From contig NZ_JAFIQT010000008.1 in assembly GCF_017355935.1 (NCBI RefSeq), positions 124,001 through 188,000 on the forward strand: 64,000 nucleotides of DNA, read 5' to 3'. This document shows positions 55,981 through 61,281 of the stretch, piece by piece. Positions within the stretch are counted from its first letter, which is position 1, and every line of letters begins with the position of its first letter. The DNA comes from Telluribacter humicola (GTDB lineage Bacteria > Bacteroidota > Bacteroidia > Cytophagales > Spirosomataceae). The notes under the pieces were generated by a model. That model was not told the DNA's origin, did not search any database, and saw nothing but the letters and a program-made list of their open reading frames with translations. A program made the position numbers and the translations under genes.

Positions 55981-56016
55981 AAAATCTCGCCTAATGTCTA
56001 AATCAGGCGAGATTTT
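55981..56016 (+). terminator. Terminator after the TM2 operon
   Basis: AAAATCTCGCCT (55981-55992) pairs with AGGCGAGATTTT (56005-56016), a perfect 12-bp stem with a T-rich end. Confidence 0.85.
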
Positions 56017-56054
56017 TGCTGGTATGTCACTATTTGTGTAGTTGAGTCCTAAGC

Positions 56055-56129
56055 CATTTGAACCGAATAGCTCTGTACTGGCTCTTATGAGTATTGATCA
56101 TTCAGTATGTTTACCTCTATCGTGAGAAA
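56055..56129 (+). repeat. Promoter-containing repeat, second copy
   Basis: Aligned copy of 55326-55400. The bases corresponding to the -7 element read TATGTTTA (56106-56113), and the ATG in them is the start codon of the lipoprotein nuclease-like gene. Confidence 0.7.
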
Positions 56130-56985
56130 GTACCTGCCCCTGTTGCTTCTGGCCCTATGCATAGTTGCCTGTGACGAGAATACTACCCCCTATCCCTATC
56201 CGGCCCCCGAAAGCGTACACCTGAGCCTGGGCAAGCCTACCAACACCAAAGCAGACACCGCCAACGCCACAGATTTCCTCATGATCAAGGAAGCTTATGC
56301 CCTGTCCTACAATCGCACTAACAGACATCCTAACTGGATGAGCTGGGAGCTGACCAGCGATTGGTTAGGTGTAGTCGATACGCATGAAGGTTTTAGAAAT
56401 GATCCGGAGCTACCTAAAGGATGGAGTCGTATTTCTCATCTGGAGTATCGTGATTCAGGGTTCAATATGGCTCAGCTTTGCCCTAATATGGATCGTACCA
56501 GTACAGTTGAAAGCTTCTCAGCTACCTACCTGACTACAAACGCTATCCCCATAGCTAACGTCCTACATGCTACTCTCTGGGCGCAGCTTGAAGTATTCGC
56601 CAGGAGCCTGGCCGTAAAAGGATACCATGTGTTTATTATAGCAGGAGCCTACGGCAGTGGGGGAGAAGGTTACAAAGGAGCTATTAGTAGCATAGGTAAC
56701 GGCATCAATGTCCCCGCTCATCTTTACAAAGTGATCGTGGCTATTCCCAACGGCGGTAACCTGGAAAAGATCAACGCAACCACGCCAGTCATAGCCGTAG
56801 ACTTTCCTAACCGCAACAGCCAGACCAGGAACAAGAGCTGGACAGACTTCATCACTACTCCCGAAGCCATCGAAAAAGCCGCTGGCGTTAGCTTCTTCAC
56901 TTACCTGCCCGAGCCTATAAGGAGCCAGCTAAAAACTTTACGATTTGATCCCACTACTTCACCAATAGCTCAACCCCTGCGGTAA
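56107..56985 (+). CDS. NUC1-type DNA/RNA non-specific endonuclease homologue with substituted active site
   Basis: 292 residues with a lipoprotein signal (lipobox IVAC, Cys22), so it should be membrane-anchored outside the cytoplasm. It aligns with NucA/Serratia-type nucleases: ALSYNRTNRHPNWMSWELT, then GFNMAQLCPNMDRTSTVESFSATYL, then LWAQLE. The family's DRGH motif is NMAQ here, so the catalytic His is Gln123; the metal-binding Asn is His154; Glu162 is kept. Codons are unambiguous (CAG for Gln123). Either the enzyme is dead, or it uses another mechanism or binds without cutting. A convergent terminator follows at 57147-57179. Confidence 0.85.
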   Translation: MFTSIVRKYLPLLLLALCIVACDENTTPYPYPAPESVHLSLGKPTNTKADTANATDFLMIKEAYALSYNRTNRHPNWMSWELTSDWLGVVDTHEGFRNDPELPKGWSRISHLEYRDSGFNMAQLCPNMDRTSTVESFSATYLTTNAIPIANVLHATLWAQLEVFARSLAVKGYHVFIIAGAYGSGGEGYKGAISSIGNGINVPAHLYKVIVAIPNGGNLEKINATTPVIAVDFPNRNSQTRNKSWTDFITTPEAIEKAAGVSFFTYLPEPIRSQLKTLRFDPTTSPIAQPLR

Positions 56986-59033: not shown

Positions 59034-59431
59034 TAGTTTGGTTTTAGTTGAGTAAAGCAGATGTGTCGATGTCTGTTAGTCAACAATAATTGAGCCGAGT
59101 CTTATAAATTTGTAAGGCAATTAGTATACGGTACTGAGGCCTGTACGGCCCAGATCCAATACTATTGCACCCGCAGACGGATTTAGTGCCTGGTATGGCT
59201 GGTGGTAAGAGTAGCTGTGAGGCTGTCTGTTATTGAAGGTGAATATAGAATTGTATGACACAGTTGGGAGTAGATCCGGCAGCTATTTGTAATCCCTTCC
59301 ATACTTTGATATATCACCTGACCCTACAACTTCAGTACTTGTGTTTCAGTAGATTGAAAAATCCGGCTACTTTGTTGTAATCATCAGATTCATCCAATTT
59401 CTGTAAGTAATCATACCTTAAGCTTTTGGAT
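59034..59431. other. Divergent spacer upstream of the sigma factor
   Basis: About 400 bases with no supported gene. Two TACTTTG words (near 59304 and 59370) are one base short of the TAnnTTTG box and might mark promoters for the sigma factor. No repeats or RNA structure stand out. Confidence 0.35.
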
Positions 59432-60025
59432 ATGCCCTACCTTACCGCTCTGAAACAGGAAAATGAGATTCTGCAGCAGGTCTCTCAGGGGAGCGAGAGG
59501 GCATTTGCAACGCTTTTCCATTACTATCATCAGCGTTTAGGGGTTCACATTTACAGAATCACCAGGTCGGAGGAACTGGCGGAGGAAATAGTTCAGGACG
59601 TTTTTCTGAAAATATGGCTGAACCGAGAGCTGCTTACGGACATAGATAACTTCCCGGTTTACCTGTATGTCATCTCAAAAAATGCTGCACTTAACTGTCT
59701 TAAGAAGGTTGCTAACGAGAAATCGAGGACTATTGACCTGGACCTGATTCCTGATGCAGCCTATGCTCCCGACACGAGTGAAGAGGATTACCGCTACCTG
59801 CTCATTGATGAAGCCATTGATCGCCTGCCCACCCAGCAGCGGCAGGTATATCTGCTGAGCCGGCACGAGCGCCTGCCCTATACAGAGGTGGCTACTCGTA
59901 TGAGCATTTCAAAAGAAACGGTAAAGAAGTACCTGCAGATTGCAACGGAATCCATCTCATCGTATACCCGTAATCGCTTATTGATAAGTACTTTAGTGAT
60001 CTTGTGCTATTTTATTCTAAAATAA
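59432..60025 (+). CDS. ECF RNA polymerase sigma factor (FecI/Bacteroidetes type)
   Basis: 197 residues from the ATG at 59432; a TTG two codons earlier is less likely. Region 2 is FATLFHYYHQRLGVHIYRITRSEELAEEIVQDVFLKIWLNR; region 4 is AIDRLPTQQRQVYLLSRHERLPYTEVATRMSISKETVKKYLQIA. A hydrophobic C-terminal tail (LISTLVILCYFIL) is a common feature in this subfamily. It should direct transcription of the downstream susC-type gene when released by the FecR protein. Confidence 0.92.
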   Translation: MPYLTALKQENEILQQVSQGSERAFATLFHYYHQRLGVHIYRITRSEELAEEIVQDVFLKIWLNRELLTDIDNFPVYLYVISKNAALNCLKKVANEKSRTIDLDLIPDAAYAPDTSEEDYRYLLIDEAIDRLPTQQRQVYLLSRHERLPYTEVATRMSISKETVKKYLQIATESISSYTRNRLLISTLVILCYFILK

Positions 60026-60096
60026 TTCAGAGTCAATACCCCCTTTTTACTACCCCCGATTGTCCTATTGGCAGAGTATGTCAATAATCATAACTT

Positions 60097-61281
60097 ATGG
60101 ACAATCCAGACAGCCGACTACAAGTACTTCTTGACCGCTATTACCATGGTACTGCTACTGCTCAGGAGAAAGAGGAGCTGATGTCACTTGTCCGTTCGGG
60201 GGAATATGATGCGCTTCTGGAAGAATATCTTAAAGACCAGTGGTCTAACTCTGCGGAAGGGGAGGAGCTATTCTCAAAAGAAAAAAGCAGTGCGATACTT
60301 AACTCCATCCTCGAGTATCCACAACAGGAAGAACCAGTTGAAGCAAAAGTTTTCAAACTAAACTGGATGCGATATGCCGCCGCCGCCGTGATTATTCTGA
60401 CTGGTTTTGGCGTTTGGTATAGCTATGATAAGAATCAGACTAAAGATAAGATACAGCCACAAATTGTAGAAAGTAACAGCATCAGGCCTGGGGGCAACAA
60501 AGCCTTACTCACACTGGCTGATGGTTCATCTATCGCCCTGGATCAGGTAAAGCAAGGCGTTCTGGCCAGACAGGGCAATGTCGAGATCAGTAAGCAGCAG
60601 GACGGTATCGTGGTATATAGTGCGAAATCAACCGGAGGTACCGCTGCTGCCGGAATCAATACACTAACTACTCCCAAGGGAGGCCAATACGAGATCTTAT
60701 TGCCGGATGGCAGCCAAGTCTGGCTCAACGCGTCCTCATCAATACGTTTCCCTTCTGTTTTTGCGGCTACCGAGCGCCAGGTTGAAATTACCGGCGAAGC
60801 TTATTTTCAGGTAGCGAAAGATAGGAGCAAGCCTTTCCGGGTCAGGTTCAACAAGTCTGAAGTACTGGTACTTGGGACGAGCTTCAATATCATGGCTTAT
60901 CCTGACGAAGAAACCTCAAAGACTACTCTGGTTGAAGGCTCCGTTTCAATCAGCAATGTTCATCAGCAGGCCAGGCTCGTGCCTGGTCAGCAGGCGGCTG
61001 TATTGTCAACGGGTCAAATCAAGACCCGGTACATTCCGGTGGATGAAGCCGTTGCCTGGCGAAAGGGAATGTTTCAATTCAAAAATGCTGGTGTAGAAGA
61101 AGTGGCCAGGCAGCTTGCCAGGTGGTATGATGTCGAAATCGAGTACCAGGGCCAGGTACCCGTTAAGCAGTTCACCGGCAGCGTTTCCAGACAGGTAGAG
61201 CTTACAGAAATAGTAGGGATGCTGCGGTACGCAGGAGTTAACTGCCGGATTGAGAATAAGAAGATTATTATAAGCCCGTAG
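60097..61281 (+). CDS. FecR-family anti-sigma factor / signal transducer
   Basis: 394 residues. The cytoplasmic N-terminal part (about residues 1-88) binds the sigma factor; WMRYAAAAVIILTGFGVWYSY is the single membrane helix; the periplasmic part has TPKGGQYEILLPDGSQVWLNASSSIRFPSVFA and GEAYFQVAKDRSKPFRVRF, typical FecR motifs, and a C-terminal DUF4974-like domain (FKNAGVEEVARQLARWYDVEIEYQG). It passes a signal from the STN domain of the outer-membrane receptor to the sigma factor. Confidence 0.94.
   Translation: MDNPDSRLQVLLDRYYHGTATAQEKEELMSLVRSGEYDALLEEYLKDQWSNSAEGEELFSKEKSSAILNSILEYPQQEEPVEAKVFKLNWMRYAAAAVIILTGFGVWYSYDKNQTKDKIQPQIVESNSIRPGGNKALLTLADGSSIALDQVKQGVLARQGNVEISKQQDGIVVYSAKSTGGTAAAGINTLTTPKGGQYEILLPDGSQVWLNASSSIRFPSVFAATERQVEITGEAYFQVAKDRSKPFRVRFNKSEVLVLGTSFNIMAYPDEETSKTTLVEGSVSISNVHQQARLVPGQQAAVLSTGQIKTRYIPVDEAVAWRKGMFQFKNAGVEEVARQLARWYDVEIEYQGQVPVKQFTGSVSRQVELTEIVGMLRYAGVNCRIENKKIIISP

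Follow-up and report, generated by a model that had tools for sequence, protein, structure and literature searches.

Analysis of a 64,000-nucleotide stretch of the genome of the soil bacterium Telluribacter humicola (referred to here as the window) revealed a gene whose product is probably a non-catalytic envelope lipoprotein with the fold of the nuclease NucA, kept for a non-catalytic task. The window gene would be one of a set of duplicated genes for secreted nucleases. Its catalytically dead product may be retained in the envelope to bind nucleic acid, a nucleotide or a partner protein, for which either the emptied cleft or the outside of the fold could serve as the platform. NucA residue numbers, together with what we take to be membership of the NucA active site, are used below as the reference for alignment columns; the columns themselves were located by alignment. 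The features of the gene are as follows.

56107..56985, + strand: coding sequence of the putative pseudo-nuclease lipoprotein, 292 aa (ORF and sequence, Pfam match)
56107..56169, + strand: predicted signal peptide up to the lipobox (sequence and purpose-written pattern)
56170-56172, + strand: predicted lipidated Cys22, with Asp-Glu-Asn next (sequence and purpose-written pattern)
56245..56910, + strand: Endonuclease_NS domain (PF01223), residues 47-268 (Pfam match)
56380..56382, + strand: Thr92 in place of a conserved Arg (NucA R93) (alignment)
56464..56475, + strand: NMAQ (residues 120-123) in place of DRGH, with Gln123 for the general-base His (NucA H124) (sequence, alignment)
56551..56553, + strand: Ile149 in place of the conserved PQ glutamine (alignment; equivalence to Serratia Gln114 suggested by motif)
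56566..56571, + strand: His154-Ala155 in place of the metal-ligand Asn (NucA N155) and the next Arg (alignment)
56578..56604, + strand: stretch with the kept active-site helix residues W158, E162 and R166 (NucA W159, E163 and R167) (alignment)

The window gene is a single uninterrupted frame, and the ORF list holds no frame of at least 80 aa on the reverse strand over it. Searching Pfam revealed the PF01223 domain with an E value of 3.3e-29 and 102.6 bits, above the curated cut-off of 23; no other Pfam family and no NCBIfam family matched the protein at E up to 1. A sequence search matched the protein to Anabaena NucA (1zm8) with an E value of 2e-42. The signal peptide and the lipobox LCIVAC-DEN, which is of the bacterial lipoprotein type, agree with the original prediction of a lipoprotein; both were called from the sequence with a purpose-written pattern rather than with a prediction program. 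A foreign origin was considered from base composition, and the values of the gene (GC 0.50, GC3 0.53) lie inside the range of seven neighbours. Two simple patterns for a Bacteroidetes-type promoter gave no match upstream of the gene. A hairpin-like inverted repeat followed by a T run, terminator-like by eye, is located directly upstream at window positions 55982-56018. Genes for a FecI-type sigma factor and a FecR-type anti-sigma factor (named by eye) are positioned downstream at 59426-61281. The genes flanking the window gene, also named by eye, hint at neither a ligand nor a partner.

Comparison with NucA revealed that 3 of 11 active-site positions (W158, E162 and R166) are kept in the window protein according to the alignment. 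In NucA numbering, the changes are R93T, D121N, R122M, G123A, H124Q, PQ Gln to Ile, N155H and R156A, and they replace the general base, the direct metal ligand, the PQ glutamine, an aspartate and three arginines. In the N-terminal part, the structure alignment with NucA showed the same shift by one residue (model residues 33 and 35 against chain residues 34 and 36). The replacement of DRGH by NMAQ, the His154 at the site of the metal-binding Asn and the retention of Glu162 had been described before and were confirmed by sequence and alignment, and the losses at Thr92 (R93), Ile149 (PQ glutamine) and Ala155 (the Arg after the metal Asn) extend that list. With Gln123 and His154, the protein lacks both the catalytic His and the metal-ligand Asn of active DRGH nucleases.

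In the Serratia nuclease, the Asn is described as the sole direct protein contact of the metal, while the His and Gln114 hold the water shell of the metal (PMC5758888). Judged by its motif, the PQ glutamine is probably the counterpart of Gln114. Because the equivalents of H124, N155 and the PQ glutamine are replaced, the window protein lacks the base and the ligand and probably also the water shell. A His-to-Gln exchange in the Serratia nuclease left <0.001% of the activity, as cited in PMC3479092. The window protein is therefore expected, from its residues, to be without catalytic activity. A changed metal site had been offered earlier as an option and is unlikely, given that neither the base nor the metal ligand nor the PQ glutamine has been kept. 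That the site has been rebuilt, with Gln123, His154 and Glu162 as a new metal or acid-base set in a protein still active as a nuclease or phosphodiesterase, is highly improbable. Glu162 and Arg166 are kept, and NucB, another His-Me nuclease, carries acidic residues for the His and Gln (PMC5758888), but here the base, the direct ligand and the PQ glutamine have all been swapped for residues not known as substitutes, and Gln is a poor base.

To place these losses among homologues, the active site was read in 191 rows, from which two fragments without the site and one duplicate reading (L149 = L193) were removed. Of the remaining 188 distinct genes, 125 belong to the same genome family and 63 to other families within the order; the set consists of the top-scoring matches among those listed and is not a random sample, with distant members under-represented, and the near-identical pairs that remain come from different genomes. 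Among the matches listed, His124 is kept in 184 of the 188 genes and N155 in 186, the exceptions for the latter being the window gene and L149. W159, E163 and R167 are kept in all 188 of these listed matches, and each of the 63 listed genes from outside the family has both the His and the Asn. On these counts, the substitutions are more than chance. Four of the 188 listed genes are without the His: the window gene, L003 from contig C11 of the same genome (FVMAN in this region), L038 from the sister species (FVMGN) and L149/L193 from genus g26 (genome G047, L193 16842-17774), which reads ERLM for DRGH and has Val for the metal Asn. Collection of homologues, which had been proposed as a check on the conservation of the substitutions, thus gave a pair conserved without the His, FVMAN/FVMGN, while the combination of Gln and His at the two sites was found in the window gene alone among the 188 matches listed.

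Further copies were sought by motif. A scan of a genome contig collection, which may omit the window gene's own or a very near genome, with an 8-residue peptide matched 30 stretches, 0 of which encode a relative of the window protein. The DNA pattern for GF-x-M-[AG]-[NKQH]-LCP matched 12 stretches of the same collection, with a nuclease only in the one from the sister Telluribacter. A wider pattern matched 5 places in the 222 genomes of the family; 3 are the nucleases, and the other matches, L065 and L066, were rejected as not encoding nucleases. These patterns detect only dead motifs with Met in the second place, and L149 shows that there are other forms.

A structural model of the window protein was generated with AlphaFold2 from a 48-row alignment (pLDDT 92.7, pTM 0.86). 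Comparison of the model with the PDB by VIA-align placed NucA first (Z 36.5 and 36.4), followed by the Serratia nuclease (26.9), forms of EndoG and EXOG (24-27) and the nuclease-like domain of autotaxin (about 24). The window protein is thus confidently predicted to have the NucA/Serratia beta-beta-alpha fold.

The T. humicola genome contains four PF01223 genes: the window gene, an intact DRGH copy (L002/L036), the FVMAN copy (L003/L035, G000:C11), which keeps the metal Asn, and a distant DRGH form (L001). FVMGN is found in the sister genome G015, taken to be Telluribacter sp. SYSU D00476 (contig C1, NZ_JAFEUV020000001.1). FVMAN and FVMGN are syntenic orthologues with matching gene order in the two species; the intact DRGH copies of the two species share a helicase-like neighbour (named by eye). 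An orthologue of the window gene was found in neither of the two Telluribacter genomes. Its nearest homologue among the matches listed has 55% identity and carries DRGH, and FVMAN/FVMGN are 50-53% identical to the window protein. Like the window protein, the FVMAN/FVMGN pair comes from this genus, has a lipobox and has lost R93, D121, R122 (to Met) and H124; unlike it, the pair retains the metal Asn, the PQ glutamine and the following Arg and is syntenic in both species.

The sister genome also holds a DRGH nuclease gene broken into two pieces (L040, G015:C10:121020-121888) and a short fragment (G015:C6:252005-252220), which mark birth and death of the PF01223 nuclease family in the genus. A FecI/FecR-type sigma/anti-sigma pair adjoins the DRGH nuclease L037 there as well. 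Orthology of the window gene and L037 on the basis of this shared pair was not accepted, as the two differ at 0.62 of fourfold sites against 0.35-0.55 in six other pairs of both species; dS is saturated, and the L037 branch measures 1.7-2.05 against about 0.27 per lineage in the intact pair.

The ancestry of the dead copies was examined with trees. With all columns, a clade of the window gene and FVMAN had an AU p of 0.557, and the placement of the window gene was unsettled. With the active-site columns excluded, the window gene grouped with the DRGH copies L006/L040 (support 84/87), and the FVMAN clade had an AU p of 0.168; the trees neither establish nor refute a common origin of the window gene and the FVMAN pair. 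Joining all four dead genes in one clade was 92 log units worse (AU p 7e-16; 40 rows, active-site columns excluded). This rejection indicates that L149 arose independently, so that Telluribacter accounts for one or two losses of the His and genus g26 for a further one. L149/L193 resembles the window protein in the loss of R93, D121, H124, the PQ glutamine and N155 and in the retention of W159, E163 and R167, but differs from the Telluribacter dead copies in this independent origin.

Selection was analyzed with purpose-written codon models with one rate class for all sites and 8 rows. FVMAN and FVMGN are 86% identical with a dN/dS of 0.05-0.08, compared with 93% and 0.07 for the intact pair. 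Omega was 0.067 on the FVMAN and FVMGN tips, and fixing it at 1 cost 106 log units. Since these tips postdate the common loss of the His, the gene without the His has been maintained by strong selection. The FVMAN/FVMGN pair is a conserved pseudo-nuclease under strong purifying selection after His loss. The claim of a conserved pseudo-nuclease thus holds for the paralogue on G000:C11, with its sister orthologue, but not in the same way for the window copy, of which no orthologue is known from the two genus genomes or the contig patterns and for which this status is no more than likely.

In the models that concern the window gene, one omega shared by the whole tree (0.06) was only 2.2 log units worse than separate omegas, with three fewer parameters, so that models free of a clock give no hint of relaxation. 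An omega of 1 over the whole branch of the window gene cost 19 log units with one topology and 20 with the other, in a test in which the branch length reached its bound and the branch includes time before the loss. A neutral last phase fitted best at zero; phases of 0.05 and 0.1 cost 1.2 and 3.0 log units, which places the limit at about 0.07 by interpolation, compared with about 0.27 (intact pair) or about 0.5 (FVMAN pair) for the lineage since the species split. The branch is long (0.69-0.81), and synonymous sites are saturated, which leaves room for a recent death of the gene. With a clock set by the nearest DRGH copy, the omega of the window branch was 0.114 against a background of 0.056, a gain of 8.5 log units over a single omega; provided that this clock is valid, the window gene has likely undergone some relaxation or a change of role. 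The codon models revealed no sign of a long neutral decay of the window gene.

The pattern of loss was studied in 53 columns conserved in at least 95% of 121 intact genes, 10 of them in the active site and 43 elsewhere. The window protein keeps 3/10 active-site columns against 39/43 of the others (Fisher p 0.0002). The values are 4/10 against 37/43 for L149 (p 0.005), 5/10 against 37/43 for FVMAN (p 0.02) and 6/10 against 38/43 for FVMGN (p 0.053), and five intact comparison genes keep 10/10 and 41-43/43. Three columns outside the active site (Ser, Asn and Phe) are missing in all four dead genes, which suggests that they form a second shell of the site. The pattern is one of lost catalysis in a retained fold, rather than of scattered decay. 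That the window gene is instead a recently dead copy heading for loss, from which catalysis drifted away while the frame is still unbroken, is rather unlikely. Such a copy would match the DRGH of the nearest homologue among the matches listed, the long branch, the raised omega under the clock and the lack of an orthologue in the two genus genomes, and the broken gene and fragment of the sister genome show that copies die in the genus. The original prediction had named close homologues that all carry DRGH as the mark of a decaying single copy, and with the DRGH of the homologue at 55% identity half of this mark is present; against decay stand the clustering of losses (7/10 in the active site, 4/43 elsewhere), the open frame, the confidently modelled fold and the neutral tail at zero, though a short phase of up to about 0.07 is compatible with the data. 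The window gene would appear to be under selection today.

The NuiA inhibitor family was also examined. Its one match in the T. humicola genome lies at G000:C17 beside the intact DRGH paralogue, where the 3' end of the NuiA gene overlaps the start of the lipoprotein nuclease gene by four bases (G000:C17:934810-936029; L196 1799-3051). NuiA and nuclease genes are also adjacent in G015, G011 and G003, and NuiA is present in 110/222 genomes of the family; in G047, some 14 kb separate it from the dead copy L149. NuiA was found beside none of the dead copies in the two Telluribacter genomes, so the window gene does not form a NucA-NuiA pair. An intact copy with an inhibitor gene and dead copies without one fit together, which is weak evidence because the intact sister copy L006 likewise has no adjoining NuiA. 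A decoy or inhibitor role had been suggested, and no result spoke in its favour. That the window protein serves as a decoy for NuiA, or inhibits an active nuclease, could draw on the overlap of the only NuiA gene with the intact paralogue, but it is highly improbable: the window protein has a signal peptide and NuiA, by eye, has none; the NuiA site on NucA overlaps the substrate site (PMC5758888), the part altered here; and none of this genome's dead copies has a NuiA gene nearby.

A special form of the favoured non-catalytic reading would be a nucleic-acid-binding lipoprotein similar to the tsetse proteins Tsal1 and Tsal2, which would hold extracellular DNA or RNA on the cell surface, where it could be taken up, serve in adhesion or be digested by the intact paralogue. 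The PF01223 domain and the His-to-Gln change are shared with these nucleic-acid binders (PMC3479092), R166 and W158 are kept, and Cys-Asp-Glu stands at the lipobox. The net charge of -1 lies within the range of intact homologues (mean -3.0, n=121). An argument from this near-neutral charge against nucleic-acid binding was dropped, as intact homologues are more acidic on average, and the probability given to this form was raised slightly on that account. It is still a minority possibility: besides the His, the protein has lost the metal Asn and three conserved Arg, unlike Tsal as reported, and the lipobox has Asp-Glu without the Lys or polar residue that surface export in Capnocytophaga is reported to need (PMC5080379), which leaves surface exposure as a lead only. 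Nucleic-acid binding by the window protein is possible.

These results describe a clear-cut example, in bacteria, of an enzyme that has died while its protein was retained. Within one genome, an intact copy accompanied by its inhibitor gene is joined by two dead ones, of which one is conserved between two species and the other is altered further; another genus adds an independent case. The role of a nuclease fold without catalysis thereby becomes directly testable. Genes annotated as DNA/RNA non-specific endonuclease from PF01223 may not cut. A search of the literature by title or abstract, in which coverage of subscription journals is thin, revealed no inactive bacterial PF01223 members. It is conceivable, as a bolder conjecture, that copies of a secreted lipoprotein nuclease have become, time and again within this bacterial family, envelope receptors that are under selection but do not cleave, with the metal site emptied and the W159-E163-R167 helix always kept; if so, that helix would be the core of the new ligand site.

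Among known systems, Anabaena NucA (PDB 1zm8, 2o3b; PF01223) shares 33% identity with the window protein over 238-240 aligned residues, and its W159, E163 and R167 have kept equivalents. The window protein differs from NucA in the loss of DRGH, the metal Asn, the PQ glutamine and R93, in being a lipoprotein by its sequence and in having no adjoining NuiA gene. The nuclease-like domain of autotaxin and the other ENPP1-3 enzymes has the same fold as that predicted here. We know of no nuclease action of this domain. It is described as serving enzyme structure (PMC6052110), and it is fused to a phosphodiesterase domain and carries a Ca-binding EF-hand-like motif, whereas the window protein (292 aa) stands alone. 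Dead PF01223 proteins are already known in tsetse Tsal1/Tsal2, of which the window gene encodes a bacterial lipoprotein variant. These salivary proteins likewise combine PF01223 with Gln for the catalytic His, have residual activity only and bind nucleic acid with a KD in the low nanomolar range (PMC3479092). Unlike the window protein, they are insect saliva proteins in which nearly all other catalytic residues are reported to be conserved in place (PMC3479092).
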